Shown here one piece after another: positions 25,788-40,139 of a stretch of DNA of 40,139 bases (its first letter is position 1; every line of letters begins with the position of its first letter). Position numbers and translations under genes: made by a program. The notes beneath the pieces were generated by a model. The model saw nothing but the letters and a program-made list of their open reading frames with translations, was not told the origin of the DNA and searched no databases. The stretch is from a virus, in IMG/VR virus record IMGVR_UViG_3300024982_000007, positions 1-40,139 of that record; one strand, written 5' to 3'.

Positions 25788-25816
25788 TTGCCTGGGCTTG
25801 CAGCTTTCGATATAAT
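25788..25816 (+). promoter_or_regulatory. Rightward early promoter
   Basis: TTGCCT, 17 nt, consensus TATAAT. It lies 44 nt before the first rightward ATG (25860), and it argues against the longer open frame beginning at 25788. Confidence 0.7.
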
Positions 25817-25859
25817 GCCGTTAAGCTTTTTTATTCTATTAATTCGCAAGGCGGATAAC

Positions 25860-26018: not shown

Positions 26019-26019
26019 A

Positions 26020-26345: not shown

Positions 26346-26354
26346 GAGAAAAAA

Positions 26355-26726
26355 ATGAACAATCTACACATGCAAAAACTATACTTTGTTTCTCAAACAG
26401 AAAAGAAACGTAAACACTTCCGGTTCAAAGTTCGTGAAGTCTTAAAAACTCTTTCAGAAGAGAGTTTTACCTTGCTAGCAATAGAGTGTTTGCATAGCAA
26501 CCATTATCCTATTCTTGAAGAGTATATTCGACTGTCTTTGGACTGGAAAGAACTCCCACATAAAGATAAATCCTGTTATAGAAAGTCAAAATCCATCAAT
26601 GATACGTTGTATCTATTAAAGAGTCATAGGAAGACTATTGTAAATATTCTAACAGGATTTGAACCTGACGGTTATAGTCCTGAAGTAGTAGAATGGTTAG
26701 TTGTTAATGATTTTTGGAGAGTGTGA
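26355..26726 (+). CDS. Unknown 123-residue protein
   Basis: A basic, mostly helical protein beginning MNNLHMQKLYFVSQTEKKRK, with a hydrophobic core near residues 30-55 and the ending VVEWLVVNDFWRV. No family recognised. ATAGGAGAA precedes the ATG. Its TGA overlaps the next ATG (TGATG). Confidence 0.5.
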   Translation: MNNLHMQKLYFVSQTEKKRKHFRFKVREVLKTLSEESFTLLAIECLHSNHYPILEEYIRLSLDWKELPHKDKSCYRKSKSINDTLYLLKSHRKTIVNILTGFEPDGYSPEVVEWLVVNDFWRV

Positions 26727-27013
26727 TGGAAGATATTGTAATAAAGTTAGATAGAGTCTCAGATAAAAACAAGTGGGAAAGAGTCAGGCTCTTACAACAA
26801 TGGTTAGATACCAAAGGTATTCCTTATAGTATCTATAATATGAATACACATATCAAGATAGTTCATAAAGACTACCATAGTATAGATATTTGGCCGACTA
26901 CAATTAAAGCTCATATAGCGCATTATGATGGTAAAAGAACTTCTTTAGACTCATGGAATAGCATAATAACTTTTTTAACTACTTTGGAATTTTTTTATGA
27001 ACCTTATCTATAA
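26726..27013 (+). CDS. Unknown 95-residue protein
   Basis: The start is placed at the ATG overlapping the upstream stop (preceded by GGAGAG), not at the TTG four codons earlier. The protein reads MEDIVIKLDRVSDKNKWERV..., mixed alpha/beta, ending FFYEPYL. No family recognised. Confidence 0.5.
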   Translation: MEDIVIKLDRVSDKNKWERVRLLQQWLDTKGIPYSIYNMNTHIKIVHKDYHSIDIWPTTIKAHIAHYDGKRTSLDSWNSIITFLTTLEFFYEPYL

Positions 27014-27326
27014 ATACTACCCAGAAGATTCATCAGTTGTTGAAGACGATTTTAATATTCCTATCACAATAAATTATATCTGCCTTGAAATAGAGTTTAC
27101 AGTTGATAAAGCTGAAAAACAATCAAAATTTTTTCCTGGAGAACTTGGAGAAATAAAGATAGAATCTATTAGTATCCTATATATAACATGTTTTGAGTTT
27201 CCTGAGCTAAAAATATATGTTCTAGGGGATCAAAAAGATATACTAGAAGCTTTAGTTGATTCATATGAATTATACGATATACTTCGGGAAGCTTGGAGGA
27301 AAGAAAATGAAAAATTGCAAAACTAG
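26997..27326 (+). CDS. Unknown 109-residue acidic protein
   Basis: Begins MNLIYKYYPEDSSVVEDDFN; beta-rich core and an acidic helical end (LVDSYELYDILREAW). It overlaps the upstream gene by 17 nt and the next by 20 nt. No family recognised. Confidence 0.5.
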   Translation: MNLIYKYYPEDSSVVEDDFNIPITINYICLEIEFTVDKAEKQSKFFPGELGEIKIESISILYITCFEFPELKIYVLGDQKDILEALVDSYELYDILREAWRKENEKLQN

Positions 27327-27441
27327 ATTTATCATTATTAAAGGTAATCTTGAGTGTAGAACAAATCTTCTAGGTGTTGTAAGAATACTCCAAAGACTTG
27401 GATGGAAAGTAAAACATAATGAACTTAGTGAATTAATTTAG
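27307..27441 (+). CDS. Unknown 44-residue basic peptide
   Basis: Begins MKNCKTRFIIIKGNLECRTN and contains LLGVVRILQRLGWKVK. The start at 27307 is supported by GGAGG 7 nt upstream; the longer frame from 27256 starts at a TTG without such a site. Function unknown. Confidence 0.45.
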   Translation: MKNCKTRFIIIKGNLECRTNLLGVVRILQRLGWKVKHNELSELI

Positions 27442-27451
27442 GGGAAAAGAG

Positions 27452-27727
27452 ATGAAAGCAATAACCACAGAAATAGATAAACATCATCCGAGATTAGAGA
27501 TAACATCTACATTACAGATAATAGTATCTCCAGAGCACCTTGCAGAACTTTTTTGGAACATGGAGTCAGCAGAGCAAGCACTGGTTTTTAACCATCTTGC
27601 AGAAATAGCACATTCATTACCTATGCAGCTACAGTTTGTTACTGATAGTGAGGAACTTACACTAAAAGGAAGAGGAGTTATGAGACTTATAGGAGAGTAT
27701 AGTATAGGAGAACATCATGACATTTAA
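27452..27727 (+). CDS. Small conserved-type phage protein, 91 residues
   Basis: Begins MKAITTEIDKHHPRLEI. The segment LAELFWNMESAEQALVFNHL followed by LPMQLQFV and GRGVMRLIGEY matches a small uncharacterised phage family by recall. Its stop overlaps the helicase start; AGGAG within its end serves the helicase. Confidence 0.6.
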   Translation: MKAITTEIDKHHPRLEITSTLQIIVSPEHLAELFWNMESAEQALVFNHLAEIAHSLPMQLQFVTDSEELTLKGRGVMRLIGEYSIGEHHDI

Positions 27728-29642
27728 AAGACCAATCATACAGACACAAGAAAGAAAGAGTTTCACTCCTACAGCGGAGCAAGTAGTAAATAAAGACCTT
27801 GTGCTTGGAGGAAATGATGTAAAGATAGTAGCTGGAGCTGGATCAGGAAAGTCTTCATCTCTTAGATATATCGCAAGCTGCTATCCTGAGAAACAATTTC
27901 TTGTCCTATGTTTCAATTCTGCAAATGCTAAAGAGAGTAATGCTCATGCAGAACGACCAGAGAATATTGTCTATTCAACAGGCCATAGTCTAGCGTACCG
28001 CGCAATCATGGACTATAAGATGAGGAATAAACTCTCTAAGTCCGGACTACTTTACAGTGATCTGGAAGAGTTCTATTTATATCAATTTGCTCCTCAAGGA
28101 GAAAGTGAGAAGGAATGGAAGGATAATATTAGAATTATCACAAAAGAAGTCTTGCAGACGGTAGAGTATTTTTGTCGTTCTAGTGCTATTGATATAGACA
28201 CATTTAGCCTTAACAGATTAGTTTATATTTTCAGCAGTAAATCTCCTGAAGAGAATATAGGAAGACTTATACTAGAAGACAATATTATTAGAGCTTTAGT
28301 AGACAATGTAAAGACTTATTGGAATAATCTTATTAATTCTAACCATCCTGCAAAAATAACACATGACGTATACTTAAAACTCTATGATCTTAGAGAAATA
28401 TCTGTAGATGAAGTATGGGATGATAGGGCTAAAGCCTATGTTAGTGTGGATGTACTATGTCTCGATGAGAGTCAGGACACGAATCCTGTAATGGAGAGTA
28501 TCTTCCGTAGGCAATCACACTTACAACGTATCATTGTAGGAGATCCGAACCAGCAACTCTATGCTTGGAGAGGTGCTAATGATATGATGAAATTACCGTA
28601 CTATAGTGATTTCACTACAGGGTATCTGACGGAGAGTTTCCGATTCAACCAAGGTATTGCAGATAAAGCGAATGTAGTTCTTGAGGCACTGCAAGCAGAC
28701 CTAAGGATTGTTGGTTCAGGGAGTAAAACTGAGATAGATAGTAGAGCGATTCTTTGTAGAACAAATGCTAGTGTGGTAGAGAGGATATTTGATAACATTG
28801 ACTCTGGCAAATCTATCTATACAAGTATTAATACTTCAGAAGTATTCAGTAAACTATTTCATCTTGAAGCATGTTATTATAACAATCTTCCAAAATACCC
28901 TTGTAAAGAGCTTTCACATATAGTTGATAGAGAGAGCTTAGAGAAAGCAGTTGAATACTCTGATGAACTCCAAAGACTACTACGTTTACAAAAGAGTCTT
29001 GTGAAGACGAGAACCTTGTGGCAAGCAAAGCAACTCCTTGAGAAGAGTCTTGTTAAGACACAGGAAGAAGCTGACATTGTAATCACTACATGTCATGCTT
29101 CTAAAGGAATGGAGTATGCTCACGTTACTATTGATGATGATTTTCTTGTTATCATGGATGATGAAACTACACAGGATGCAGTTGAAAGACTCTATGAGAC
29201 TGAGAGTCTACTCTGTTTACTTTATGTGTCGTTGACAAGAGCACAAGTAGAGGTGGAATATCCTTGGTATTTGAAAAGTATGTTCGACAAGTATGAGGAA
29301 CTTGATGAAGGAGAAATGGAAGAAGTAGATAATTTGATGAAAACAATAGCTACGTTTGATAACATAGTTCAAAACGCTCCTTATGTTGTATATAGACTCT
29401 ACGACCATAATAAAACTCTTCTATTCATTGGTGTTACATGTAATCTTGGTAATAGATTAAAACAGCATGTTAGAGTAGATGATTGGTTTGGTGAGGTATG
29501 TTTGAATAATATTGAAACGGTTGGGTATGGAGATAGGAATAGCGGGTATGAAGGTAGAAGAGAAGCTTTACTTTCGAGTGAACCATTGTATAAAGGTATA
29601 TATCAGACTGATAAGGTATTTGAAGATAATGTGAATTATTGA
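27717..29642 (+). CDS. UvrD/Rep-like SF1A helicase with C-terminal GIY-YIG-like domain
   Basis: A 641-residue protein. Residues ~15-540 are an SF1A helicase: Walker A AGAGSGKSSS (39-48), motif II LCLDESQD, motif III VGDPNQQLYAWRGA, motif V TTCHASKGMEY and motif VI LYVSLTRAQ. Residues ~554-641 read VYRLYDHNKTLLFIG, then a spaced arginine in LGNRLKQH and a glutamate in RREALLSSEP, the order of GIY-YIG nuclease residues (Tyr, Phe/Tyr-Ile-Gly, Arg, Glu). One polypeptide could thus unwind and nick DNA. The helicase assignment is firm, nuclease activity is inferred. Confidence 0.85.
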   Translation: MTFKRPIIQTQERKSFTPTAEQVVNKDLVLGGNDVKIVAGAGSGKSSSLRYIASCYPEKQFLVLCFNSANAKESNAHAERPENIVYSTGHSLAYRAIMDYKMRNKLSKSGLLYSDLEEFYLYQFAPQGESEKEWKDNIRIITKEVLQTVEYFCRSSAIDIDTFSLNRLVYIFSSKSPEENIGRLILEDNIIRALVDNVKTYWNNLINSNHPAKITHDVYLKLYDLREISVDEVWDDRAKAYVSVDVLCLDESQDTNPVMESIFRRQSHLQRIIVGDPNQQLYAWRGANDMMKLPYYSDFTTGYLTESFRFNQGIADKANVVLEALQADLRIVGSGSKTEIDSRAILCRTNASVVERIFDNIDSGKSIYTSINTSEVFSKLFHLEACYYNNLPKYPCKELSHIVDRESLEKAVEYSDELQRLLRLQKSLVKTRTLWQAKQLLEKSLVKTQEEADIVITTCHASKGMEYAHVTIDDDFLVIMDDETTQDAVERLYETESLLCLLYVSLTRAQVEVEYPWYLKSMFDKYEELDEGEMEEVDNLMKTIATFDNIVQNAPYVVYRLYDHNKTLLFIGVTCNLGNRLKQHVRVDDWFGEVCLNNIETVGYGDRNSGYEGRREALLSSEPLYKGIYQTDKVFEDNVNY

Positions 29643-29693
29643 TTAAACAGATAGAAGAAAATGAAAGTAAATATTTTATAACAGGTTAAGATT

Positions 29694-29747
29694 ATGACTA
29701 AGATAGATGATAAACTTAATCGTAGTATTAAAAAGGAGATTCTTTAA
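29694..29747 (+). CDS. 17-codon leader-like ORF
   Basis: Starts ATGACTAAGATAG after a GGTTAAGA sequence and ends at the ATG of the next gene. The AAGGAG used by the next gene lies inside it, so its translation could influence that start. Very weak as a gene. Confidence 0.25.
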   Translation: MTKIDDKLNRSIKKEIL

Positions 29748-29975
29748 ATGAAAATAGAACAAATAACATATCTCTGCGATTGTTGTAGGAAAACTCTAAC
29801 TAATGAAGAAATAAAATTCGCAACTTCAGAACAAAATTCTATACATATTATCTCTATCACTTATGATGTCTGGTATGGAGGAGTCTTTAAGATACGCGAT
29901 ATATGTACGGACTGTAGGAGCAAGATAGTAAAATTTTTAAAAAACGAAAATATGTTAAGAGGACAGAAACAATGA
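29748..29975 (+). CDS. Small protein with two CxxC pairs
   Basis: A 75-residue protein with CDCCRK near residue 10 and CTDC near residue 53, a four-cysteine zinc-binding layout. AAGGAG precedes the ATG and the stop overlaps the next start. Possibly nucleic-acid binding; no family named. Confidence 0.55.
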   Translation: MKIEQITYLCDCCRKTLTNEEIKFATSEQNSIHIISITYDVWYGGVFKIRDICTDCRSKIVKFLKNENMLRGQKQ

Positions 29976-30814
29976 CAAAATATGTAAGAACAAACTATGT
30001 GCCTGAAAGACATAAAAAATTACTGACAGTAGGAAAACTTTATGAAATTATAGATGAAGGAATGTGTCAAGAGATTATAAATGATATTGGGAAATCTATC
30101 TTGATATATCTACCACACTGTGCATATTTAGATGATAAATCTTGGGAAGTAGTAGAAATTAACGAGGAAGAGGAAGCAAAGATAAAAGAAAGAGAATTGA
30201 AAGTTGGTGATTATGTTAAAGTAATAAAGGATGAAAAACGTCAATTCGGACTGAATTCTATTATAGAGCCTTTTGTAAATAAGGTATATAAAATTGTGAG
30301 TGTTAAAGGACAGTCATACATTCTTGACATTCCTTCCAATGTACTTACATACTATTTTGCTAGAGATAGCTTGGAGTTAGTAGAAGGAAAAATACAACAA
30401 GGTTGCTCACATGTAGACCTTATCCTTGAGTATGCAAAAGACTGTCAGAAGTATAAAAAACCTTGGTTGTTATGGCAACATTGTGAAGATGGGGGGATAT
30501 GGGAAGACTTTCCAGAATACTACGGGCATTTAATGTGGAACAGTAAGAGTCACTATAGACGTAGACCTTCTTCAATTAATATTAATGGTTTTGAAGTACC
30601 AGAACCATTAAGAGAGGTTCCTAAAGAAAGAATTGCAGTTTATCTGTCTTGGATTTACCACAAAGATTATTTTATCAAAATTTATTGGGATAACAGTAAT
30701 CTCAGTCACCAAAAATGGTTGGCTAGAGGATTACTCCATTTATTAAGAGAATCTGCAATTTATCATACAAAAGCACTACTTTCATTTACAGAGATTCCTA
30801 ATGTCAACAACTAA
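29972..30814 (+). CDS. Phage protein with SH3-like segment and conserved YRRRP tail
   Basis: A 280-residue protein. Residues ~75-137 (LKVGDYVKVI...VYKIVSV...) look like an SH3-type beta barrel. The second half contains KPWLLWQHCEDGGIWED, MWNSKSHYRRRPSSININGFEVPEP, a module repeatedly seen in phage early proteins of unknown function. ATG overlaps the upstream stop (CAATGA). Role unknown. Confidence 0.6.
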   Translation: MTKYVRTNYVPERHKKLLTVGKLYEIIDEGMCQEIINDIGKSILIYLPHCAYLDDKSWEVVEINEEEEAKIKERELKVGDYVKVIKDEKRQFGLNSIIEPFVNKVYKIVSVKGQSYILDIPSNVLTYYFARDSLELVEGKIQQGCSHVDLILEYAKDCQKYKKPWLLWQHCEDGGIWEDFPEYYGHLMWNSKSHYRRRPSSININGFEVPEPLREVPKERIAVYLSWIYHKDYFIKIYWDNSNLSHQKWLARGLLHLLRESAIYHTKALLSFTEIPNVNN

Positions 30815-30941
30815 TTTTATATTTGCATGTATCGCTATAGTGATTATATTTATCTTTTCTAATTTATACTCAAATCCGTGTAGTGCATTTCGACCAGATA
30901 CTTTTTGCAGTATGTTTATGCAGGAGGGTGAAGAGAGATGA
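30801..30941 (+). CDS. 46-residue single-span membrane peptide
   Basis: Begins MSTTNFIFACIAIVIIFIFS: a hydrophobic span at about residues 6-21 followed by a polar tail with two cysteines. It overlaps the upstream gene end, and AGGAGGG near its 3' end is the ribosome-binding site of the next gene. Function unknown. Confidence 0.45.
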   Translation: MSTTNFIFACIAIVIIFIFSNLYSNPCSAFRPDTFCSMFMQEGEER

Positions 30942-31267
30942 TAGAAAAATATACAAATGAGTTCGGAAAGGTATGGTATCGTGGTGTAACTTCTGAAACA
31001 CCATTTACAGACTTAGAGTTCTACAAATGCCCGGAACAATTCGAAGATAATGTACTATACGCTTTGCATACTAATCTAGGAAGTCTAACTGTTCTTGATA
31101 GAATGACTGGCTTTGGCTACAGGGATACTGAGACAGGGTATAGAGATATGGAAGGTAATTTCTGGTTAGCTTTAGGTATGCAGGATGTTAGAAAAAGTAA
31201 ATCAACTACGATGCAAGAAGCTATCGATTGGGTAAAGAAAAATGCAAATAATTATCTCGGAGTCTAA
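30938..31267 (+). CDS. Conserved-type phage protein, 109 residues
   Basis: Begins MIEKYTNEFGKVWYRGVTSE, with LTVLDRMTGFGYRDTETGYRD and FWLALGMQDVR. This glycine/aspartate-rich core is familiar from uncharacterised early phage proteins. AGGAGGG is well placed before the ATG. Function unknown. Confidence 0.65.
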   Translation: MIEKYTNEFGKVWYRGVTSETPFTDLEFYKCPEQFEDNVLYALHTNLGSLTVLDRMTGFGYRDTETGYRDMEGNFWLALGMQDVRKSKSTTMQEAIDWVKKNANNYLGV

Positions 31268-31285
31268 TAAATTTTATTTAAATAC

Positions 31286-31314
31286 TTGTGTAAAAAATAA
31301 ACCTTCTGTATAAT
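31286..31314 (+). promoter_or_regulatory. Promoter before the 213-residue gene
   Basis: TTGTGT, 17 nt, consensus TATAAT, ending 57 nt before the ATG. It can separately drive the 213-residue gene and possibly the tRNA cluster. Confidence 0.7.
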
Positions 31315-31371
31315 AACCACATCAATTAGAAATTCTCTGATTGAATTAAAACCAACTTTGAGGACTCCAAA

Positions 31372-32013
31372 ATGACCGAAGAAAACACAAACGTAGAAGT
31401 AACCGAAACTCCAATTAAAGCAGTTGTTTCAAACATCGTCACTATGGAAAATGGTGAAAACATTGATTTCGGTAAATCTGGTAAAATAAAAGCATCATAT
31501 GATGTTGCAACATCTACTATTACTTTCAAAACTGTTGTTGGTTCAATCATCAACTACGTTGTAGATGGATTAGATAATTTATCAGACTTTCAAAAAGAAG
31601 TCTACCTATACGGCGTAATGGAGAAAATTAAATCTACTCTTGCACCAACTAAAATAGAAGACCTTGAGGCAAAGATAAATAAACAGATTGAAGAAGTTAA
31701 ATCTGGTGTGTTTACTACAAGAACAATGGATAGTACTGTAGAACTAAGCGATTTTCTAAAAGCTTTTGCTATTATTAACGCTACACAGAGATTATTTACC
31801 CCTATGGGTTATGTTGATGTTGCAATGCCAGTAGAAGCTTTAAAAGTTACTGAATTACAACCACATTGGGTTAATGTAAATAATTCAGAAGTTATTAAAG
31901 AAGTATCAGATTTCTGGACTGCATTGCCTAAAGGAGAAAAATCAGCACAAAGAGGGAATAGCTTTGTAAAAGCACAACTTAGTTTCATTGAAAATAACCT
32001 TGTTACCTTGTAG
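31372..32013 (+). CDS. Unknown 213-residue protein with its own promoter
   Basis: The protein begins MTEENTNVEVTETPIKAVVS and has ENGENIDFGKSGKIKASYD, a lysine/glutamate helix (KIEDLEAKINKQIEEV) and a C-terminal ALPKGEKSAQRGNSFVKAQL. I recall similar phage proteins in early regions but cannot name a function. Its own strong promoter and tidy codon use suggest high expression, as for an SSB-like or abundant accessory protein; this is speculation. Confidence 0.6.
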   Translation: MTEENTNVEVTETPIKAVVSNIVTMENGENIDFGKSGKIKASYDVATSTITFKTVVGSIINYVVDGLDNLSDFQKEVYLYGVMEKIKSTLAPTKIEDLEAKINKQIEEVKSGVFTTRTMDSTVELSDFLKAFAIINATQRLFTPMGYVDVAMPVEALKVTELQPHWVNVNNSEVIKEVSDFWTALPKGEKSAQRGNSFVKAQLSFIENNLVTL

Positions 32014-32043
32014 ACTCTAAATTTAGGACTATATTTAAGATAG

Positions 32044-32110
32044 ACTTTAGTATTATCAGTGAGAATAGTGTGCGGCAACGCTTCTGTGCATTACACTGGA
32101 TTACTAAAGT
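32044..32110 (+). ncRNA. Structured RNA element ahead of the tRNA cluster
   Basis: ACTTTAGTA at the 5' end pairs with TACTAAAGT at the 3' end (9 bp), enclosing AGTGT/ACACT and a GCG-GCAA-CGC hairpin with a GNRA tetraloop. It lacks a T-loop, so it is not a normal tRNA. The 5' strand can alternatively pair with CTAAAGT at 32135-32141. It may be an RNA-processing element or a decayed tRNA. Confidence 0.45.
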
Positions 32111-32144
32111 TTCCTCTTTGAAAGCCTAGAAGGTCTAAAGTTTT

Positions 32145-32225
32145 GGAAGATAGCGTACAGGGTACAAACAAGTCTTGAAAACTTGGCTAACCGAAAGGTT
32201 AATGGTTCGATTCCTTTATCTTCCG
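32145..32225 (+). tRNA. tRNA-Ser(UGA)
   Basis: The acceptor GGAAGAT/ATCTTCC is perfect over 7 bp. The anticodon arm is CAAGT-CTTGAAA-ACTTG with anticodon TGA. A variable arm (GCTAACC...GGTTAA) and a TTCGATT T-loop follow. The T-stem has one T-T mismatch and the D-arm is poor, so the gene may be slightly degraded. CCA is not encoded. Confidence 0.8.
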
Positions 32226-32235
32226 TATCTATATT

Positions 32236-32310
32236 GCCTATGTGCAGGGAATGGTTACTGACTGGACTGCAAATCCGGTGATGCTGGTTCGAATCCAGTC
32301 ATAGGCTCCA
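32236..32310 (+). tRNA. tRNA-Cys(GCA)
   Basis: Acceptor GCCTATG/CATAGGC, anticodon arm CTGGA-CTGCAAA-TCCGG with anticodon GCA, T-arm CTGG-TTCGAAT-CCAG, the discriminator T expected for cysteine and an encoded CCA. All arms fold well. Confidence 0.92.
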
Positions 32311-32315
32311 ATCTA

Positions 32316-32401
32316 GGAGAGTTACGTTAACGGTAAACGGACAGTTTGCTAAACTGTTGACCTAATGGGTCTTATAGGTTCGAGTCCTATACTCTCCGCC
32401 A
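32316..32401 (+). tRNA. tRNA-Ser(GCU)
   Basis: Acceptor GGAGAGT/ACTCTCC, D-stem CGTT/AACG, anticodon arm ACAGT-TTGCTAA-ACTGT with anticodon GCT, long variable arm GACC/GGTC, T-arm ATAGG-TTCGAGT-CCTAT, discriminator G and encoded CCA. Its last 13 nt (32389-32401) lie inside the inverted repeat, so the repeat boundary falls at the edge of the acceptor stem. Confidence 0.93.
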
Positions 32402-32523
32402 CCTTCCTCTAATCCCATCCGTTTCCTAGTATCGTACAAACTAGGTCAACTTCATTCTATCTTACAGATTCTACCTACAACTACACAACTTCATTATATA
32501 GTATTCCGCTCACATCTTCCCTC

Positions 32524-32786
32524 CTTCCGGCGACCCAGCCGCATTAATCCGCTCACTGCCCGCATTACCCGATCACTACCCAAAATCCCTTTAAATTCCG
32601 GTAAAATACGCCTCACCACGCCCCGATCTACCCACACCGCCCTACCACACAGGCCTACAAAATCGCCCCGCAAACCTCAAAATCTAAATAACACCGTTTA
32701 ATTAAATCGTCTGGCGACCAACTACACTAATAGCATATCTTCCGGCGACCTGACTTCGTTATATACTTTCACTCCTTCTGGCGACC
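32524..32786 (+). repeat. Four dispersed copies of a 12-bp motif
   Basis: CTTCCGGCGACC at 32524-32535 and 32739-32750, CTTCTGGCGACC at 32775-32786, and CGTCTGGCGACC at 32708-32719. All have the same orientation. The three clustered copies are 31 and 36 bp apart, close to three helical turns, which suits cooperative protein binding. No further copy was noticed outside the arms. Confidence 0.7.
32539..32580 (+). repeat. Imperfect 21-bp tandem repeat
   Basis: CCGCATTAATCCGCTCACTG is followed after 21 bp by CCGCATTACCCGATCACTAC, with a related TTCCGCTCAC just upstream near 32505. It directly abuts the first 12-bp motif. Confidence 0.6.
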
Positions 32787-33024
32787 TAGGGTTATTAATA
32801 CATGTACATGTGCCTGTATACCAAGGCGGTTGGACAGCAGGTGTAAATGAGGAGGATGCGTTGAAGCCGTGGCGGAGATGATGTCAGGGAGTGGTATAGA
32901 TGAATAGAAAGATGATGTCAGGTGTCCAGCTCAGGGTATGATATAGATGTCAAGCTAGTCAGGTAGGGCAGGGCAGGGTAGGTAGGGTAGTATGATAATC
33001 TTGTTTGCATGTATAAAAAAAAGA

Positions 33025-33054
33025 TTGACATTGCTTATAGATTTGATCTAAACT
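33025..33054 (+). promoter_or_regulatory. Promoter of the lipoprotein gene
   Basis: Consensus TTGACA, 18 nt, TAAACT, about 38 nt before the ATG at 33092. It is probably the start of the plasmid-like block, independent of read-through from the unique region. Confidence 0.65.
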
Positions 33055-33091
33055 ATGTCCAACTTAAACAGATTTACACGGAGAGACTCTC

Positions 33092-33220
33092 ATGAAAACT
33101 TTACTTATACTTGCTATCATCATCTCTACTCTATTTGCATGTAATGCTCTTGTAGAAAGTTTTAAAGACAGCTTGACATCTCATATAGAGATAGTTGAGA
33201 ATAGCACATCAAATTTATAA
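33092..33220 (+). CDS. Small lipoprotein, 42 residues
   Basis: The peptide begins MKTLLILAIIISTLFACNAL: a basic residue, a hydrophobic core and the lipobox LFAC, so signal peptidase II should leave Cys17 as the lipidated N-terminus of a ~26-residue tail. The size and design resemble plasmid bacteriocin-release (lysis) lipoproteins and entericidins, but the tail has no recognisable similarity. It has its own strong promoter and a GGAGAG ribosome-binding site. Role unknown; a lysis or envelope function is a guess. Confidence 0.6.
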   Translation: MKTLLILAIIISTLFACNALVESFKDSLTSHIEIVENSTSNL

Positions 33221-33235
33221 CAATTGGAGAAGGAA

Positions 33236-33499
33236 ATGAAAAGAGGAGAAGCAATCGATGCTATAATAGCTATGGCAGTTGATATGGTCGTAATATCAAA
33301 ACTAGATGATAGACATTTAACGGAGTTTTATATCTTTGTACAATCAGAATTTTTAGCAACTGAATTAATACGTCGTTTTAACGGGTCAGAGTTAGTTGAC
33401 CATTTTTACCAACGGTCATTTAGTAATTTGAGTTATTTAAACTACGGAAATAGGTCTATGTGTGTTATTGGATTTGATAGAGTCGATAGAGTCGATTAG
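33236..33499 (+). CDS. Unknown 87-residue protein
   Basis: The start is placed at ATG 33236 behind GGAGAAGG rather than the TTG at 33224. It begins MKRGEAIDAIIAMAVDMVVI; the first half is helical and hydrophobic, the second polar, ending in a short DRVDRVD repeat encoded by a tandem gatagagtc repeat. No family recognised. Confidence 0.55.
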   Translation: MKRGEAIDAIIAMAVDMVVISKLDDRHLTEFYIFVQSEFLATELIRRFNGSELVDHFYQRSFSNLSYLNYGNRSMCVIGFDRVDRVD

Positions 33500-33503
33500 A
33501 CTA

Positions 33504-33536
33504 ATCAAGTTATAGTTGTCTCGACTATAGCTTGAT
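33504..33536 (+). other. 13-bp stem hairpin between genes
   Basis: ATCAAGTTATAGT pairs with ACTATAGCTTGAT (one T-G wobble in RNA) around the 7-nt loop TGTCTCG. It lies 4 nt after a stop codon and 51 nt before the next start. Without a T-run it is more likely an RNA-stability, processing or antisense-type element than a terminator. Confidence 0.65.
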
Positions 33537-33587
33537 GCAATCTAGCATCGAAGGCAATAATGCCAACTAATTTACAAGGTGAATACA

Positions 33588-34370
33588 ATGACTACTCAAA
33601 CACAAACATCATTAGATTTTTTCAAAACCTTCTATCGTGTAACTAACGACGACGGACGGCTTAATAGCCTTGCAGTTGCTCAGTGTGCAGCTCTCGATAC
33701 TTATTACACAGAGTTATCATATAATGATAACATCCTCACTGCACGGCGTGTATCAGATGGTACAATCGAGACACTATCCCCTATTCGCTTACTTGGTCTC
33801 GTATCTAATGCTGGTGCTAAAATACCGGCTTTTGAAAGTCAATTCTGGAAAGCTGGTGCGGTTAACAACAAATTTAAACCTTTAGATGGTACAAAACCTT
33901 CTGAAGTGAGTACCACTCCACTTATCGGCCACTACCTAACCGCTGAAGCATTCGAGCGGCAGTCTTACATAGAATTACTTGATTTAGTGGAACTTGTTAC
34001 AGTGATTAAATCATTACGTGATACTGATACTAAAGCGGCTATATTTGCACGCTTGCAGGATGCAATATCACTACCATCCGATAGACAGGCTGCGATTGAT
34101 GAGGCATACCGCAAAGAAGCTGGTGTACAAGCTGCAATGCTTGCGCTTACACCTTACCTTGAAGCACTAAAAGCTTCTAGTGATAAATCCCTTACAGGTT
34201 GCGTGCGTCTTGATCTGGACCCAGATGCTACTCAAGCACTGCAAACCTTAACTAATAAAGATAATGGTATGTATCCGCTAACCTCTATCAATGTCCAACC
34301 TGCTCGCATGGACGGATTCATTCAAGTATCACCTGCGAGATACTTCCTCACCCTATCTATAAAAGACTAA
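33588..34370 (+). CDS. Unknown 260-residue protein
   Basis: The protein begins MTTQTQTSLDFFKTFYRVTN and is alpha/beta without membrane spans or recognisable motifs. A helical, alanine-rich middle (AAIFARLQDAISL...AAMLALTPYLEALKAS) precedes a strand-rich end (VQPARMDGFIQVSPARYFLTL). Codon use looks less AT-biased than the phage replication genes, suggesting a separate origin. AAGGTG precedes the ATG. A short hairpin AAAGAC-TAA-GTCTTT overlaps the stop. Confidence 0.65.
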   Translation: MTTQTQTSLDFFKTFYRVTNDDGRLNSLAVAQCAALDTYYTELSYNDNILTARRVSDGTIETLSPIRLLGLVSNAGAKIPAFESQFWKAGAVNNKFKPLDGTKPSEVSTTPLIGHYLTAEAFERQSYIELLDLVELVTVIKSLRDTDTKAAIFARLQDAISLPSDRQAAIDEAYRKEAGVQAAMLALTPYLEALKASSDKSLTGCVRLDLDPDATQALQTLTNKDNGMYPLTSINVQPARMDGFIQVSPARYFLTLSIKD

Positions 34371-34394
34371 GTCTTTGCTTCAACAACTATAATA

Positions 34395-34413
34395 GGTGGG
34401 ATACATTCCCACC
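34395..34413 (+). promoter_or_regulatory. Hairpin just ahead of a ribosome-binding site
   Basis: GGTGGGA pairs with TCCCACC over 7 bp around a 5-nt loop, ending 3 nt before GGAGG of the 33-residue gene. It may shield or stabilise the leader and tune translation. Confidence 0.45.
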
Positions 34414-34424
34414 TTGGAGGATCG

Positions 34425-34526
34425 ATGTACTTACCGAAATTTAACCGTGATAGTGTCTTACTGATACTATCGTATATTATCATCGCGGCTATCCAAGCCG
34501 TTGTCATTGTAGGATTCCTGTCATGA
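34425..34526 (+). CDS. 33-residue single-span membrane peptide
   Basis: Begins MYLPKFNRDSVLLILSYIII; a hydrophobic span covers about residues 11-32. A perfect GGAGG precedes the ATG and the stop overlaps the next start (ATGA). No homologue recognised. Confidence 0.55.
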   Translation: MYLPKFNRDSVLLILSYIIIAAIQAVVIVGFLS

Positions 34527-34777
34527 TTATTTTAAGAAAGGTCAATCAAATATACCCTGTTTACAAACTGTATCATCATCTTACAGGGGCGGTCTATCTT
34601 TGTAGTCAGCTAGTTGACGGCTTGCCAGGGTACCGTCTTATTATTGCAGACGTGTACAAAGTGCATGCTTACTTTGACACTATACAGTATGTTTGGATTG
34701 TTCAATCAAATAGTGTGACTCTTGTACAATCCTTGCTTGCTGGTCAACAATTCATCGTAACGGAGCGTGTATTATGA
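34523..34777 (+). CDS. Unknown 84-residue protein, first of two paralogues
   Basis: Begins MIILRKVNQIYPVYKLYHHL. Its segment CSQ(x6)GY(x2)I(x9)YxD(x2)Q(x2)W is shared without gaps with the next protein. It is predicted mostly beta. Overlaps at both ends indicate coupled translation. No family recognised. Confidence 0.6.
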   Translation: MIILRKVNQIYPVYKLYHHLTGAVYLCSQLVDGLPGYRLIIADVYKVHAYFDTIQYVWIVQSNSVTLVQSLLAGQQFIVTERVL

Positions 34778-35040
34778 ATCTTAAACAGATAAAGTCACTC
34801 TTCAGTGATTATGCAAAGCATATACAGGTTGATCGTAAACAGTTGTTTATCTGTTCACAACGAATCCCTAATGATTCAGGGTATAATAAAATCCTTGTAT
34901 CATATCGTATGATAGTAGGTTACTATGATGATGTACAAGCTTGCTGGGTGCTTACTCGTGAGAAGTATTCTCGTACAACAAGTAAGCAAATCACACAATT
35001 TGCGCGCTGGCGTAATGTTATCTACGTAGATAGTCTTTGA
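34774..35040 (+). CDS. Unknown 88-residue protein, second of two paralogues
   Basis: Begins MNLKQIKSLFSDYAKHIQVD. It shares Cys-Ser-Gln, Gly-Tyr, Ile, Tyr-x-Asp, Gln and Trp at matched spacing with the 84-residue protein, so the pair arose by tandem duplication. A basic C-terminal stretch distinguishes it. The parS-like site starts 2 nt after its stop. Confidence 0.6.
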   Translation: MNLKQIKSLFSDYAKHIQVDRKQLFICSQRIPNDSGYNKILVSYRMIVGYYDDVQACWVLTREKYSRTTSKQITQFARWRNVIYVDSL

Positions 35041-35041
35041 T

Positions 35042-35057
35042 TGTTTCACATGGAACA
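35042..35057. other. parS-like 16-bp site
   Basis: The minus strand reads TGTTCCATGTGAAACA, 15 of 16 identical to TGTTCCACGTGAAACA, a site bound by ParB/Spo0J. The near-palindrome lies directly upstream of a promoter. No ParA or ParB gene is in the window, so a host ParB or one encoded beyond the window would be needed. Confidence 0.5.
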
Positions 35058-35079
35058 CAGTATGTTGTTAAAATAATTC

Positions 35080-35109
35080 TTGACATACTCTGTCATTTGC
35101 GATTATCCT
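35080..35109 (+). promoter_or_regulatory. Promoter of the 89-residue gene
   Basis: TTGACA, 18 nt, TATCCT; 23 bp after the parS-like site and 48 nt before the ATG at 35157. Confidence 0.55.
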
Positions 35110-35156
35110 ATAGTCAAGTTAAGTCAATCCTGATTTATACAACTGGAGATACCATA

Positions 35157-35426
35157 ATGTCATACGAATCATTTAAAAATGCACTTACTTACATCACTGT
35201 ACCAGTTTCTAGTACAATCATTGAGCGCTCAGATAATCGTTGCTATGATAGCCTTAAGCGTGTCTGCATCGATCATACAGTCAAACAAGCAAGATACACG
35301 CTTAATGCTGGCAATCTGCAAAGGTTAAATCAAGTTTATATTAAACTTGCAAAGGTACATGGAGCAATATCATGTACAGATGACAAACACTTTGCTCATG
35401 CAATACTTGAGATAAACTTTAGATAG
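35157..35426 (+). CDS. Unknown 89-residue protein next to the origin
   Basis: Begins MSYESFKNALTYITVPVSST. Mainly helical with a basic middle (DSLKRVCIDHTVKQARY) and a histidine-bearing end. The start follows CTGGAGA; the longer frame from 35037 is excluded because it would span the promoter and parS-like site. It could regulate replication or partition by position alone. Confidence 0.6.
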   Translation: MSYESFKNALTYITVPVSSTIIERSDNRCYDSLKRVCIDHTVKQARYTLNAGNLQRLNQVYIKLAKVHGAISCTDDKHFAHAILEINFR

Positions 35427-35742
35427 CTTTAACAACCTTGCCAAGGATGGCACCTTTATCTAGCTGTATGGTCGGTAGACTAGAAAGGTACTACCTGGAT
35501 GTTGAAACTGTATGCGTAGTGTAACTACAGCGACCAAGCGTATATATTAAATTTTCCTAGACGAAGACTAAATAAGCTATGCTTATAGAATAGAGGAGGC
35601 TTTGCCTCAGAATAGCTTATGCTAGATAGAGGATAGATTAGCTTTATATAGCTATAGCTACTCTTTTCACCACCCGCCAAATGTAATTGCAAATTACAAT
35701 GGTAGTAGTGAAAGAAAGTGTTAAATTTCAACGACTTAAGTG

Positions 35743-35786
35743 CAAAAAGGTGTAGGGTTTTTCCCAAAAAGGTGTACGGTTTTTCT
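35743..35786 (+). repeat. Two tandem 22-bp iterons
   Basis: Two head-to-tail units begin CAAAAAGGTGTA and end GGTTTTTC(C/T), differing at two positions (35755/35777 and the last base). Spacing is exactly two helical turns. The core AGGTGTA recurs in both arms of the operator at 35832-35870, as expected if Rep binds both. A hairpin GGTTTTT/AAAAACC follows. Confidence 0.75.
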
Positions 35787-35831
35787 GAAATCAAAAACCA
35801 TGCCAACTTTTAACCTATGCCACTATATAAT

Positions 35832-35870
35832 TTAAGGTGTATTATTAACTTGCTTTACCTTACACCTTAA
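35832..35870. promoter_or_regulatory. Rep autoregulation operator (inverted repeat)
   Basis: TTAAGGTGTA and TACACCTTAA form a perfect 10-bp inverted repeat with a 19-bp spacer. The second arm lies between the -35 and -10 of the rep promoter, so Rep dimers bound here should repress rep, as in other Rep_3 plasmids. Confidence 0.65.
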
Positions 35871-35878
35871 TATAAAAT
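35850..35878 (+). promoter_or_regulatory. rep promoter
   Basis: TTGCTT, 17 nt, TAAAAT, ending 23 nt before the rep ATG; CAGGAGA is the ribosome-binding site. Confidence 0.55.
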
Positions 35879-35901
35879 AAACAAAGCACTCAGGAGAATA
35901 T

Positions 35902-36564
35902 ATGGAAACTGAAATAAAACTTCACCATAACGCTATAGCGATATTTAAAGATATTGAGTTATACTCAACTAGGTTTATTAACTGTTGTCTCTTAGGGACA
36001 GGACAAGGGACTAAGTATGGAGAATATGACTACTATCCGGTGAATATATATAAGTATAAAGAAGTATGTAATCTGACACTGTCAGAGGCTTATGAAAGTG
36101 CTTTCAACATGGCAACAAAGTTAAATGAGATAAAGTTAGAGTTGAAGTTGGTTGATGGAAAGACGTTGGTGACAAATTTGATACATGGGATTGTTTACGA
36201 GAAAGAGAAGAATGTACTCTTGATAAACTGGAACAAGGACTTTATTCCATTGATTTCAGGTAATATGCTTAAAGGAACTTTTCTTATGGCAGATATAGCA
36301 ATGATAGAGGTACAGAGTACGCATAGATATGCAATGTATTTGCTTATACAAAAATATCTATGGAAGCTTGCCCGTGAGAGTAGATTCTTTCTAGGAAAAG
36401 GAGAGATTAGAGAACAATTAGGATTAAAGGGTAGTGAGTATAAACAATTCAAGGAGCTTCATAGAAGTATAATTAAACCGACGTTGAAAGACATGTATAA
36501 TAGGATTGGAGTTAGTTTGAAAACTAAGGTAGTAGGAGATAGAGTTGAGTTTACACATGTATGA
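35902..36564 (+). CDS. rep: Rep_3-superfamily plasmid replication initiator
   Basis: A 220-residue protein with the two winged-helix domains of RepB/Rep_3 initiators. The first domain has NIYKYKEVCNLTLSEAYESA, the hinge region VLLINWNKDFIPLISG, and a helix ending QSTHRYAMYLLIQKYLW (the S-x-YAxRLYEL-like signature). The second has GEIREQLGLKGSEYKQFKEL, IIKPTLKDM and VEFTHV. It should bind the iterons upstream and open the origin. It is slightly short for the family. The end overlaps the next gene. Confidence 0.82.
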   Translation: METEIKLHHNAIAIFKDIELYSTRFINCCLLGTGQGTKYGEYDYYPVNIYKYKEVCNLTLSEAYESAFNMATKLNEIKLELKLVDGKTLVTNLIHGIVYEKEKNVLLINWNKDFIPLISGNMLKGTFLMADIAMIEVQSTHRYAMYLLIQKYLWKLARESRFFLGKGEIREQLGLKGSEYKQFKELHRSIIKPTLKDMYNRIGVSLKTKVVGDRVEFTHV

Positions 36565-36979
36565 GATAACAAAGGAAGATTTACTCGGAAAATTCCCATA
36601 CTCTAAAGTCTTGCAAGGAAGCTATGGGAATGAAAAAGCTTATAGAGCTTTTAAACCAAAGGTACAGAGTATATGTAATAAGTTTAAGAAAGGAAAGGAG
36701 AGTTTTGAAGCTTGTATTATGCTCATAGACATAGAGTTAATAAAGGTTATGGAAGGTTTTCCTGAAGACTTTCCAAAAGATGAAGGATGGTATGATAAGA
36801 AATTACGTTTTGATGGGGCAGAGGTAGAAAAGAAACTAAATAGACATGGATTGAATGTAGAGATATGCAAGGTATGTAAAGTAAAATTAGAGGCTAGATA
36901 TAGAGAGGTTAGAGAAATTGAGGGAATGAAATGGGTTATTCATAAAAGATGTATGAAGGAGAAGGTGAGATATGAGTAA
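36545..36979 (+). CDS. Small protein with CxxC...HxxC zinc-site pattern
   Basis: 144 residues from a TTG at 36545, which has AGGAG 6 nt upstream; the first ATG is at 36557 but lacks a spaced ribosome-binding site. The protein has a helical first half and ends with CKVCKVKLEARYREV...KWVIHKRCMKEK, a plausible four-ligand zinc knuckle as in small phage DNA-binding proteins. It is where most differences between the two arms lie. Confidence 0.6.
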   Translation: MSLHMYEITKEDLLGKFPYSKVLQGSYGNEKAYRAFKPKVQSICNKFKKGKESFEACIMLIDIELIKVMEGFPEDFPKDEGWYDKKLRFDGAEVEKKLNRHGLNVEICKVCKVKLEARYREVREIEGMKWVIHKRCMKEKVRYE

Positions 36980-37100
36980 GGTATATGTGATTGGGGATTT
37001 ACATGGGAATTGTCTTCCAGACAGTAGGTATATCTGTGTAAGTGCTGAGAGAACAGGGCTAAGGCCGATTGAGTTGGAGAGTTTGGGAGAGATGAGATGA
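36972..37100 (+). pseudogene. Remnant of a metallophosphoesterase gene, 42 codons
   Basis: Begins MSKVYVIGDLHGNCLPD: the IGDLHGN motif is the first metal-binding motif of calcineurin-like phosphoesterases. The second half RYICVSAERTGLRPIELESL resembles the C-terminal strand of the same enzymes (VxVxxxxYRPVSLDEI-like). The catalytic middle, over 100 residues in the family, is missing. Tight overlaps at both ends suggest it is still translated. Confidence 0.55.
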
Positions 37101-37288
37101 ATGAGAGGCTATATAAACATATAAAGACAGGAAATTTATACAAGGTTCTCTACAACGCTATTGATTGTACAAATAGTAGAGATGGTGTAAGAGTTATTGT
37201 GTACTGTAAGATTGGTGAAGAAGATAAGGTATATGTACGAGATGCGAAGGAATGGGAAGAAAAGTTTAAACGAGAGGAGATGAAATGA
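37097..37288 (+). CDS. DUF1653-like small protein
   Basis: 63 residues beginning MNERLYKHIKTGNLYKVLYN. The order YKHIKTGNLY, then VLYNAIDCTNS, a VIVYCKI strand and VYVRDAKEWEEKF matches the small DUF1653 beta-barrel family (YxHxKGxxYxV...VYR...VRPxxxF). Function unknown. Confidence 0.65.
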   Translation: MNERLYKHIKTGNLYKVLYNAIDCTNSRDGVRVIVYCKIGEEDKVYVRDAKEWEEKFKREEMK

Positions 37289-37581
37289 TGAAGTATCAGA
37301 GTGAAATGTTGGGGACTTGGAAGAGATTGAGAGAGGAACAGAGGAAGATGGAGAGAACGGAAGCAGAAAGCTCTAAAGGTCCTAAGTGGAAAAAATCTCC
37401 CAAAATTGTGAAGGATAGACTAAAAGTATTAGATAAGATAGGTAGTACAAAGGAAGTTACAGATTTATCTGCTTGGAGGGATTTTGAGATAGATGGGTTT
37501 GAGTTTGAGAAGAGTGATGTAGTTGTTTGGTTTGTGTTAGTAATCGTGACGTTGGTTTGGTTGGGAGGAGGAGGAGGATGA
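37285..37581 (+). CDS. C-terminally membrane-anchored small protein
   Basis: 98 residues. The first half is basic and helical (GTWKRLREEQRKMERTE). A single hydrophobic span (VVVWFVLVIVTLVWL) is near the C-terminus, followed by five glycines encoded by a (gga)n run at 37568-37579. It has a tail-anchor layout. It ends 6 bp from the convergent late gene. No family recognised. Confidence 0.6.
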   Translation: MMKYQSEMLGTWKRLREEQRKMERTEAESSKGPKWKKSPKIVKDRLKVLDKIGSTKEVTDLSAWRDFEIDGFEFEKSDVVVWFVLVIVTLVWLGGGGG

Positions 37582-37587
37582 TACTCC

Positions 37588-37920
37588 TCAGACATCTAGC
37601 AGAAATAGTGTAAGTCCTAGTTCTGCGAGAAGATCATACGGAGGAGTGTCTGAAACAATACCTGTTGAGATTAACCCTATACAGTCTGAAAGAGTCGCAA
37701 AAGACTTTACAATATTATATAGAGTATTTGCATTGGTCATAAAAGGAATAACTCCATCATCTATCCATCCACTAGAGATGTAATAGTGGATGTTTCCAGA
37801 AAAATCATATACAGGTACTTGAAACATACCTGCACCATGTATAGGAGATAGAATTATAGCAGCTCTACGTGCAAGGTCTACATAGTTTGGATCAATTAAT
37901 ATTACTTTTTCAACATTCAT
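37588..37920 (-). CDS. Small late protein of unknown function
   Basis: 110 residues beginning MNVEKVILIDPNYVDLARRA. A hydrophobic, strand-rich middle contains GAGMFQVPVYDF and a C-terminal LLAELGLTLFLLDV. It is the last gene of the late unit, following the adhesin by 9 nt, so it may be a chaperone or tail accessory. No motif supports either. Confidence 0.6.
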   Translation of the reverse strand: MNVEKVILIDPNYVDLARRAAIILSPIHGAGMFQVPVYDFSGNIHYYISSGWIDDGVIPFMTNANTLYNIVKSFATLSDCIGLISTGIVSDTPPYDLLAELGLTLFLLDV

Positions 37921-37929
37921 AAGGTTTCC

Positions 37930-38952
37930 TTAATTATTCGTAACTGTCCAACCACGACCTTGTAGATTTGTCTTTGCAGTTAGTCCTGTTGCTGAAGGTG
38001 TAGAGTTTGTTCCACCAGTAAGATTTAATGTACCATTACTTGTACCTGCGGTATCGATTGAAACAAGGATATTATCTACACTTGTCTGCGTAAGCGCACA
38101 TCCAGTAAAGGCAGATGAAAAGTTTGTACAACCAGTTGCATCAAACATATTAGCTGGAAAAGTTGCTAGATTTGTACAACCATTCCAAGCCGTTGAACAA
38201 GATGTTACGCTCGTAGTAGTTAGTAGAGGAAAAGACGTTAAAGAAGTATTTCCATCACACATTCCCGAAAAAGAAGTTGCAGAGGATGTATTTATACTAG
38301 GGAAACTTGTTAAAGAAGTCATTCCTCTAAATGCACTAACAAAATTAGTTGTAGAACTGGTAGCAAAAACAGGAAAATTTGTAACTTTAGCAAAAATATT
38401 TCCAGAAACGGTTCCTCTAAATATATTTGATATGTTTGTTTGTGACCTATATGCACTTATTCCAGCAGGACCACCACCTATTGATTTAAAATAAGTATAA
38501 CAACGCTCTATTTCTGCACAACTCATTTCTCCTTCTCTGATTATAATTCCGACAATATCAAGTACAGGTGCATAAAGTCCTCCTACAGTATAAGTACCAG
38601 CAGGAATTGACACACCATGTGCTAGTGTTCCCAACGTAGTTGCATAAATCATAGTTCCTATAATACCACCAGTTGGTACTGTGAAACTAATAGTGTCATC
38701 AACCCTATCAAGTGTGACACGAGAGGGACTTATTTGATAAGTAGGTCTTGCTGCGGAAGTAGCTTGTGTGCCATTAATTGCGTTTGTAGTTAAGTCAGGG
38801 AAAAAACCTACAGGTTGTGCAGCTCCATTTACTGGCGTAGTTACCGTACTATCCTGATAAAGACCTGTAGTTTTTGCAAACTGCCACCAAAGGCCTTTCT
38901 GTCCTCTTTTAAAAAGGTTTTTTGGAGTCCATGAGGATTTATTCGGATACAT
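37930..38952 (-). CDS. BspA-like repeat adhesin / tail-fibre-type protein
   Basis: A 340-residue protein. Residues ~1-150 form a head region of Gly/Thr/Ala-rich strands. From ~165 on, repeats of about 20-24 residues follow the form (T)NFxSAFxGMTSLTSFPxxxT, with NTSLTSFPLL, CTNLATFPANMFDA and CTNFSSAFTGC. This is the BspA-type leucine-rich-repeat-like pattern found in phage and bacterial surface adhesins. The end (DNILVSIDTAG...GTLNLTGGTNS...LQGRGWTVTNN) is typical of phage receptor-binding or tail-associated proteins. Receptor unknown. Confidence 0.75.
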   Translation of the reverse strand: MYPNKSSWTPKNLFKRGQKGLWWQFAKTTGLYQDSTVTTPVNGAAQPVGFFPDLTTNAINGTQATSAARPTYQISPSRVTLDRVDDTISFTVPTGGIIGTMIYATTLGTLAHGVSIPAGTYTVGGLYAPVLDIVGIIIREGEMSCAEIERCYTYFKSIGGGPAGISAYRSQTNISNIFRGTVSGNIFAKVTNFPVFATSSTTNFVSAFRGMTSLTSFPSINTSSATSFSGMCDGNTSLTSFPLLTTTSVTSCSTAWNGCTNLATFPANMFDATGCTNFSSAFTGCALTQTSVDNILVSIDTAGTSNGTLNLTGGTNSTPSATGLTAKTNLQGRGWTVTNN

Positions 38953-40139
38953 TAAATATCTCTTGTATGAATAGTAAGGCGACTAACACCAGCAGATGTT
39001 GGTGTATAAGCTCCGACTGTCTGCAAAATCACGTACAGACTTGTACTAGAGAGTGTGATTTGTTTTCCAATACAGTCGTTGTCAATAAAGAGTGTACTTC
39101 CTTCATCAATTGGAACGCCAATACGAACTTTACCAAGGTATTTTCCCCTATCCCCTGAAGGTATGTCAAAGACAGCGTTATCTGCAATTGCTGTAGGAGA
39201 GGCATTGTATAGTCTCACATCAAACATATCCATACCAGAGGGTCTAGCTGACTCATCTACTTCGTATTCAATTGATGTAATCTCTACTTCTCCAGCAGCA
39301 CGAATCATAGAGGCAAAAGTAAAGATAGCAGAACCGTTTGTATCACCAATTACATCACCTGCTGTGTAAGCAGTAGTATTACTTGGACGTGTTATTGTAA
39401 CTGTTGCGCTATGTCCGTTTGAGCTATTAGTTACAGTACCAATAACTTTTGTTGTTTCTGCTGAAAGTGTAGCTGCAACAGGTATAGAAGATTGGTCAGA
39501 CGGAAGCACAACTTTTAAAGAAGTTGCCATTGTACCTTGACCAAGGGCTGTTGGAAGTAGAGCTATAAGAGAAGTTATTCTTTGAGCAACTCGTTGCAAA
39601 CGTCCATTAAGACCACTACTTGCAGTGTCAGTTCCAGGTGCAGTTTCTGTTAATCCTCCAAGGTCTGTTACAATCGTAGCTAAATTTCCTGCCTCAAGAG
39701 CTGCTCCAGTTGGAAGAGGTAAGGAAGCTGCTGATACGGCAATAGTAGATTGGTCACTTGCAACTGTGACTGCAAGACTTCCAGCCATAGTCTTCTGCCC
39801 TAGAGACGTAGGTACAAGAGCTATTAGAGAGGTTAATCTCTGAGCTACACGCTGTAGACGCCCATTTAAACCTGAACTGGCTGTATCGGTTCCAGGGGCT
39901 GTTTCAGTTACTCCTCCTACAGCTGTAATAACAGTATCTTGTTTAGTTTCTGTTGCAGGAGCTGCAATAATTTTAGCTAGAAGAGCTGCAAGAGATGTCT
40001 CTGTTGCAAAGTCCTTCGCAGCAATCGTAGATAAAGAACTATTCCCTGTGTCCTGTTTTGCTTCAGTCGCAGGAGAGGTAATAATTTTTGCCAAAATAGC
40101 TGCTGATGTTGTTTCCGTAGAAGCCCCTGTAGGTAGAGC
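38952..40139 (-). CDS. Repetitive phage structural (tail) protein, 5' end missing
   Basis: The frame is open to the window edge; at least 395 residues are visible. It contains two ~90-residue repeats (TETAPGTDTASSGLNGRLQR, VAQR(L/I)TSLIAL(V/L)PT(S/A)LGQ, then SDQS(T/S)I(A/P)V) and shorter ATEAKQDT/ATETKQDT units, a phage tail or virion-protein style. The C-terminal ~170 residues form a non-repeated beta domain (DVRLYN...DIPSGDRGKYLG). It is a probable virion component. Its start and partners lie outside the window. Confidence 0.8.
   Translation of the reverse strand, partial: ALPTGASTETTSAAILAKIITSPATEAKQDTGNSSLSTIAAKDFATETSLAALLAKIIAAPATETKQDTVITAVGGVTETAPGTDTASSGLNGRLQRVAQRLTSLIALVPTSLGQKTMAGSLAVTVASDQSTIAVSAASLPLPTGAALEAGNLATIVTDLGGLTETAPGTDTASSGLNGRLQRVAQRITSLIALLPTALGQGTMATSLKVVLPSDQSSIPVAATLSAETTKVIGTVTNSSNGHSATVTITRPSNTTAYTAGDVIGDTNGSAIFTFASMIRAAGEVEITSIEYEVDESARPSGMDMFDVRLYNASPTAIADNAVFDIPSGDRGKYLGKVRIGVPIDEGSTLFIDNDCIGKQITLSSTSLYVILQTVGAYTPTSAGVSRLTIHTRDI

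Follow-up and report, generated by a model that had tools for sequence, protein, structure and literature searches.

Rep_3 initiators are commonly taken to signal plasmids, and they are used in metagenomes to call phage-plasmids. The classical Rep_3 arrangement consists of iterons together with an operator that carries inverted half-iterons. The iterons form tandem arrays close to the gene, with a length of 17-22 bp each. The iteron number differs among plasmids, three or more being typical, not strictly defining. In the Rep_3 iteron plasmids F (RepE), R6K (Pi), pPS10 (RepA) and P1 (RepA), the initiator has two winged-helix domains (PF01051 and PF21205), and an inverted-repeat operator with the iteron core lies between the iterons and the gene. 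The origins of F and pPS10 have four iterons each, and three or more is the usual number at known Rep_3 plasmid origins (PMC4980987). Phage lambda encodes its own iteron-binding initiator, O, next to its replication genes, and an A+T-rich segment there is the DNA to be opened. The lambda iterons are four inverted repeats that lie within the O gene and bind dimers (PMC5043065). Phage-plasmids such as P1 have a Rep_3-type initiator in a tailed phage; partition genes, and genes for lysogeny control (repressor) or multimer resolution (integrase-type recombinase, serine resolvase), are further marks of this class. Large inverted repeats with duplicated origins are found at oriS of herpes simplex virus and in plastid DNA.

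The phage locus described here shares with the Rep_3 plasmids the two winged-helix domains, the position of an operator-like inverted repeat with the iteron core and, with R6K and pPS10, the iteron length of 22 bp. It differs from them in carrying two iterons instead of three or more, in having no exact DnaA box and no recognised partition genes, and in belonging to a phage with a polymerase of its own; Rep is about 24-25% identical in sequence to the plasmid members. It resembles lambda O and its origin, by functional analogy, in a phage-encoded iteron-binding initiator next to replication genes and in A+T-rich DNA for opening; it differs in having two direct repeats upstream of a Rep_3-type gene and not iterons inside the gene. 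Like P1, it is a phage with a Rep_3-type initiator; unlike in P1, no partition, repressor, integrase or resolvase genes were recognised.

The window, that is, the whole stretch of DNA analysed, is an entire IMG/VR virus record of 40,139 nt, from a tailed bacterial virus that is uncultured. Its core encodes PolA in two ORFs, a Dda-like helicase, a UvrD-type helicase with a GIY-YIG tail and a Sak4-like protein, along with two exonucleases of the polymerase-exonuclease family, DNA and RNA ligases, DNA methylases, a dUTPase and a thymidylate synthase (ThyA). The polymerase, the SF1 helicases and the recombination genes agree with the phage gene set that the initial annotation had described. Three tRNA genes stand at the right end of the core, and tRNAs were the sole matches of an Rfam search. 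No capsid, portal or terminase was detected among the window proteins scanned. The two polymerase ORFs (14917-18111; 652 and 265 aa) are separated by a 97-aa ORF. The same split occurs in L101 and in G001 (IMGVR_UViG_3300020045_002782, 55,027 nt), a relative found through polymerase searches. The second part of the G001 polymerase carries an intein-like insert of ~319 aa, with Cys first after Gly, Thr afterwards and a weak LAGLIDADG match.

A Rep_3-family gene preceded by two iterons

Using the curated Pfam cut-offs, we find both Rep_3 domains in the rep ORF: Rep3_N (WH1, PF01051) at 27.7 bits against a cut-off of 22.4, and Rep3_C (WH2, PF21205) at 23.6 against 21.1. A profile of Rep and its G001 homologue matched R6K Pi and pPS10 RepA in the PDB. 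Performing Foldseek searches with a structure model of modest confidence (pLDDT 62.7), we obtained the F RepE-operator complex, Pi and RepA as the best folds, with a probability of 1.00 and whole-chain TM-scores of 0.3-0.4. The assignment of the ORF to the Rep_3 family (RepE/Pi/RepA-type) is secure.

Rep has no near homologue in the plasmid and phage collections searched, and a conserved-peptide scan of genomes of about 85,000 species gave none either. Only two of the 72,556 plasmid records matched, at 24-25% identity. When viral and genome contigs were searched with Rep alone or with the two-sequence profile, G001 was the sole match. The best phage-protein families were PHROG 2172 (E 1e-8) and PHROG 4402 (E 0.0045). 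The latter is annotated as a replication initiation protein; the former has no assigned function, and the Rep match covers just part of its profile.

Upstream of rep, the two iterons are directly tandem and identical at 20 of 22 positions. When the 475-nt region was shuffled 1000 times with dinucleotides preserved, no pair as good arose, and TRF ranks the pair as the top-scoring tandem array in the window. Scanning the unique part of the record, we found no third iteron; the next best site matches at 16/22 positions and lies elsewhere. Thus the window has exactly two iterons, as does G001, in comparison to the three or more of F, pPS10, pSC101 and R6K. Between the iterons and the rep start codon sits a perfect inverted repeat. 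By itself this repeat is weak, with 39 of 1000 shuffles being as good. Both of its arms contain the iteron core AAGGTGTA, which occurs four times in the 475 nt (8/1000 shuffles) compared to four times in the other unique 32 kb. The exact DnaA box TTATNCACA is absent from 35427-35901, where sites with one mismatch are as frequent as in shuffles, and promoter-like sites are not above the chance level.

The initial annotation had read this locus as a complete plasmid origin, made up of a Rep_3 initiator, tandem iterons and an autoregulatory operator. The domain, profile and fold searches bear out the initiator, and the shuffling test bears out the iterons. An operator-like inverted repeat with the iteron core is indeed present, the repeat alone being weak. 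A complete plasmid origin is not confirmed, given the two iterons, the missing exact DnaA box and the chance-level promoter sites.

Table 1. Coordinates of the rep cassette, the inverted-repeat arms and the core in the window
Feature	Position	Strand	Details
Iteron 1, CAAAAAGGTGTAGGGTTTTTCC	35743..35764	+	22 bp
Iteron 2, CAAAAAGGTGTACGGTTTTTCT	35765..35786	+	22 bp
Both iterons, left-arm copy	4354..4397	-	
Fixed element ACCATGCCAACT next to the iterons	35797..35808	+	Single occurrence per genome; nearly the same iteron distance in G001
Putative operator of rep: inverted repeat with perfectly matching 10-nt arms (TTAAGGTGTA / TACACCTTAA)	35832..35870	.	Arms 35832-35841 / 35861-35870
Conserved non-coding element upstream of the iterons, about 77 nt	35482..35557	+	79% identical in G001; first part in G016 too
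rep, Rep_3-family initiator	35902..36564	+	Right-arm copy; 220 aa, two winged-helix domains; Pfam, PDB profile, Foldseek, G001 homologue
rep, exact second copy	3576..4238	-	Left arm; protein match 100% at both places
Gene after rep, about 140 aa	36557..36979	+	8-nt overlap with the rep stop codon; same neighbour in G001 (204 aa)
Left arm of terminal inverted repeat	1..7751	.	Colinear with the G001 rep region
Right arm of terminal inverted repeat	32389..40139	.	Starts in the 3' end of tRNA-Ser(gct) 32316-32401; ends in an open fibre ORF
Single-copy core	7752..32388		24,637 nt; replication, recombination and nucleotide genes and three tRNAs

Conservation of the cassette in relatives

The polymerases of G001 and the window are 69% identical, and their Rep proteins are 36% identical. 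The G001 Rep is likewise assigned to Rep_3 by both Pfam domains (34.5 and 23.1 bits). Upstream of it we find two tandem iterons with a 21-bp step (1/500 shuffles) and an inverted repeat just ahead of rep. The sequence ACCRTGCCAACT occurs once in each of the two genomes, 9-11 nt past the second iteron. The common order is the 77-nt element, two iterons, ACCRTGCCAACT, the inverted repeat, rep, the next gene, and then the fibre and late genes. Beyond the gene that follows rep, G001 continues with fibre genes on the opposite strand, followed by terminase, portal, major head, tail, endolysin and spanin-like genes. The comparison with G001 places the rep cassette where the replication module meets the fibre/late genes, in agreement with the position between these modules stated earlier for the window.

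The iteron count of two has been maintained despite the low Rep identity. Since the same layout stands at the same module boundary in the diverged G001, the cassette is an old, selected and fixed component of the lineage. The minimal two-iteron layout and the unexplained fixed ACCRTGCCAACT, shared by two phages this diverged, make the origin architecture open to comparison.

Not every member of the wider group has the cassette: the more distant relative G016 keeps the neighbouring genes and the initial portion of the conserved element, and it carries an unrelated 318-aa protein in the place of rep. As a candidate second initiator this protein was rejected: it had no profile or PDB match, and its structure model was useless. 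The 223 nt upstream of this protein (phrog_36702) hold four TGTACA sites, compared to 12 in the 43-kb record, which is suggestive only. Compared to G001, the late-gene module of G016 (L094-L096) has the opposite orientation.

The element at 35482-35557 is conserved above the level of the downstream Rep, and it begins with AGAAAGGTACT in three phages. We checked it as a possible RNA structure and found no structure signal, with z-scores of 0.05-0.47 for the element and -0.20 for a longer stretch.

Proposed role in phage replication

We searched for lifestyle genes in the window and five related records (six records, all fragments) and in 14 control genomes. Phage_integrase, ParA-type AAA_31, ParB_N, HTH_3 and Resolvase gave no match in the six records, while the controls matched in 10-14 of the 14 genomes (ParA 14/14, ParB 10/14). 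The HTH_3, integrase and serine resolvase searches would miss divergent types, and as all the records are fragments and missing genes could lie outside them, these absences are evidence and not proof. From its phage polymerase, nucleotide metabolism genes, methylases and ligases, the gene set appears virulent.

Given that no plasmid or lysogeny genes were recognised, that Rep has no near relatives in the plasmid, phage and genome sets searched and that lambda O provides a precedent, we take the cassette to encode an initiator that serves the phage itself. This is the most likely role of the locus in the lineage, and we hold it, together with the mechanism proposed here, with moderate confidence. 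A Rep_3 protein, probably monomeric, would bind the two 22-bp iterons, which lie some 100 nt ahead of rep, and the bound Rep would open the adjoining A+T-rich DNA, firing the origin in the lytic cycle. Rep would recruit the replicative helicase, most likely the host DnaB, because DnaB_C and Toprim_2 searches of the phage records recognised neither a DnaB-type helicase nor a Toprim primase. The phage polymerase and helicases may carry out the extension after initiation. Rep dimers on the inverted repeat ahead of rep may repress the gene, and initiation would be limited early in infection. An iteron initiator with lytic replication has a precedent in lambda O (PMC5043065). By this analogy, the cassette would likelier fill the role of the lambda O-ori module with a protein of a plasmid family. 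A literature search on Rep_3 in virulent phages gave nothing direct. The presence of two iterons only, the lack of an exact DnaA box, the promoter sites at chance level and the absence of the cassette from G016 are points against the own-initiator reading.

The cassette could instead keep the phage as an extrachromosomal prophage with a controlled copy number, as RepA does for P1. This phage-plasmid lifestyle had been put forward in the initial annotation, and it is suggested by Rep_3, iterons and operator forming a plasmid replicon of the P1/F type and by plasmid initiators being the best PDB matches of Rep. We consider it unlikely and, as far as gene content goes, not supported, because ParA, ParB, integrase, HTH_3 repressor and resolvase were all missing from the six related records, the genes are of virulent type, and neither the plasmid records nor the genome contigs hold a close relative of Rep. 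That Rep merely regulates, binding the repeats to control early/late transcription while replication starts elsewhere, e.g. via the phage recombinases, is quite improbable: the location at the early/late module boundary, the mere two iterons and the inverted repeat directly ahead of rep would suit such a regulator, but both phages retain the two winged-helix domains, the two-iteron arrays with the fixed neighbour element stand upstream of rep and are not spread over many promoters, and the record has no further iteron-like site.

Here a Rep_3 gene is conserved in a virulent-looking, polymerase-bearing lineage where maintenance genes were not recognised. Thus the marker by itself can mislead when phage-plasmids are called.

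The long inverted repeat and a possible doubling of the cassette

The first and last 7,751 nt of the record are exact reverse complements (100% identity), so that the record holds an exact copy of the cassette in each arm, as had been stated earlier. Both outer record ends fall in a fibre ORF that has no start codon. The homologue of this ORF in the relative G005 extends about 100 residues beyond this point and is followed by late genes. Since the fibre ORF runs off both ends, the record is a fragment; this and the additional residues in G005 rule out the inverted repeat as natural linear genome termini. A de Bruijn assembler can produce exact arms by using one repeat edge twice. The exact identity of the arms is therefore uninformative on its own about the copy number.

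A second record, G002 (IMGVR_UViG_3300024979_000019, 24,981 nt), represents a different strain from another sample. Its length is accounted for exactly by the core (24,637 nt), an insertion of 90 nt and, on either side, 127 nt of the arm. It differs from the window by 13 SNPs across 20 kb, 45 SNPs across 4.8 kb and the 90-nt indel. An assembly graph with k = 127 leaves a 127-nt overlap at a repeat. As both ends of G002 fall 127 nt inside the repeat, both core ends adjoin only the repeat in the second sample too. The ends of G002 argue against a random chimera, and they fit two inverted copies per genome, though the core may instead end physically on one side. A simple inversion of the core with another neighbour at the free end is disfavoured, as G002 would then stop at the branch point and not 127 nt in.

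The doubled copy may well be unreal, to which we would give somewhat less than an even chance: the genome would have one repeat unit, which the assembler or a chimera placed on either side of the core. The complete identity of the arms and the ORFs leaving both record ends are in line with this, and G001 and G016 each have one such region. Incompleteness is also common among contigs with terminal inverted repeats: where an estimate existed, only 33.2% were of high quality (PMC8116208). These points have to be set against G002, whose strain and sample are different and whose two ends both lie exactly 127 nt inside the repeat, because a random chimera is not expected to recur at identical bases.

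To a real doubled copy we give the same weight, again short of an even chance. Two inverted 7.75-kb repeats, both bearing a rep-iteron cassette, would lie between the replication core and a late-gene core, and recombination could flip the replication core. Both inner junctions are found again in G002. The fibre ORF runs open off the outer ends, and in G005 late genes follow it, so a second single-copy region is expected. An exact-pattern search with the outer-end sequence of the repeat gave no same-strain contig linking it to late genes, and no relative carrying the same repeat was found; both count against the doubled copy.

Two origins on one molecule are plausible from these junctions. The earlier remark that a pair of opposed origins is unusual with regard to copy control presumes this arrangement, which goes beyond what the record alone shows and gains from the G002 junctions; likewise, the one copy per arm is established for the record and for the repeat next to both core ends in G002, not for one molecule. 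If the long inverted repeat is true, two opposed origins per phage genome bear on how interference is avoided, and the possible duplication of origins would be the more unusual part of the finding. A tailed phage whose two opposed 7.75-kb rep-iteron repeats flank an invertible core, as a bacterial-virus counterpart of the herpesvirus and plastid layout, is a tentative and rather doubtful idea. The likeness, a single-copy region between long origin-bearing repeats, exists only if the arms are real; the systems are not homologous, and the two-copy state of the phage comes from assemblies only.

The right junction falls within the 3' acceptor strand of tRNA-Ser(gct), and the left junction follows a 134-aa ORF. 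The gene order of G001 suggests that the left junction is ancestral, and the tRNA tail in the arm suggests that the inner-edge sequence of the repeat derives from the right side.

Several smaller features of the arms and the core were also seen. With the repeat boundary (32389) inside tRNA-Ser(gct), the left arm starts with the tRNA tail joined to the end of the 134-aa ORF. The start of the UvrD-type gene (27704-28634) contains the 90-nt indel and is only 95% identical to G002, compared to 99.9% for the remaining core. The fibre-like gene (38952-40139 and 1-1188) has internal repeats (LPTGA.., TEAKQDT..), and pieces of it are found in dozens of unrelated viral contigs. The stretch at 32401-33050 (and 7090-7739) is non-coding and carries four YGGCGACC motifs; at the matching place in G001, GGCGACC motifs stand at 17788, 18001 and 18029.
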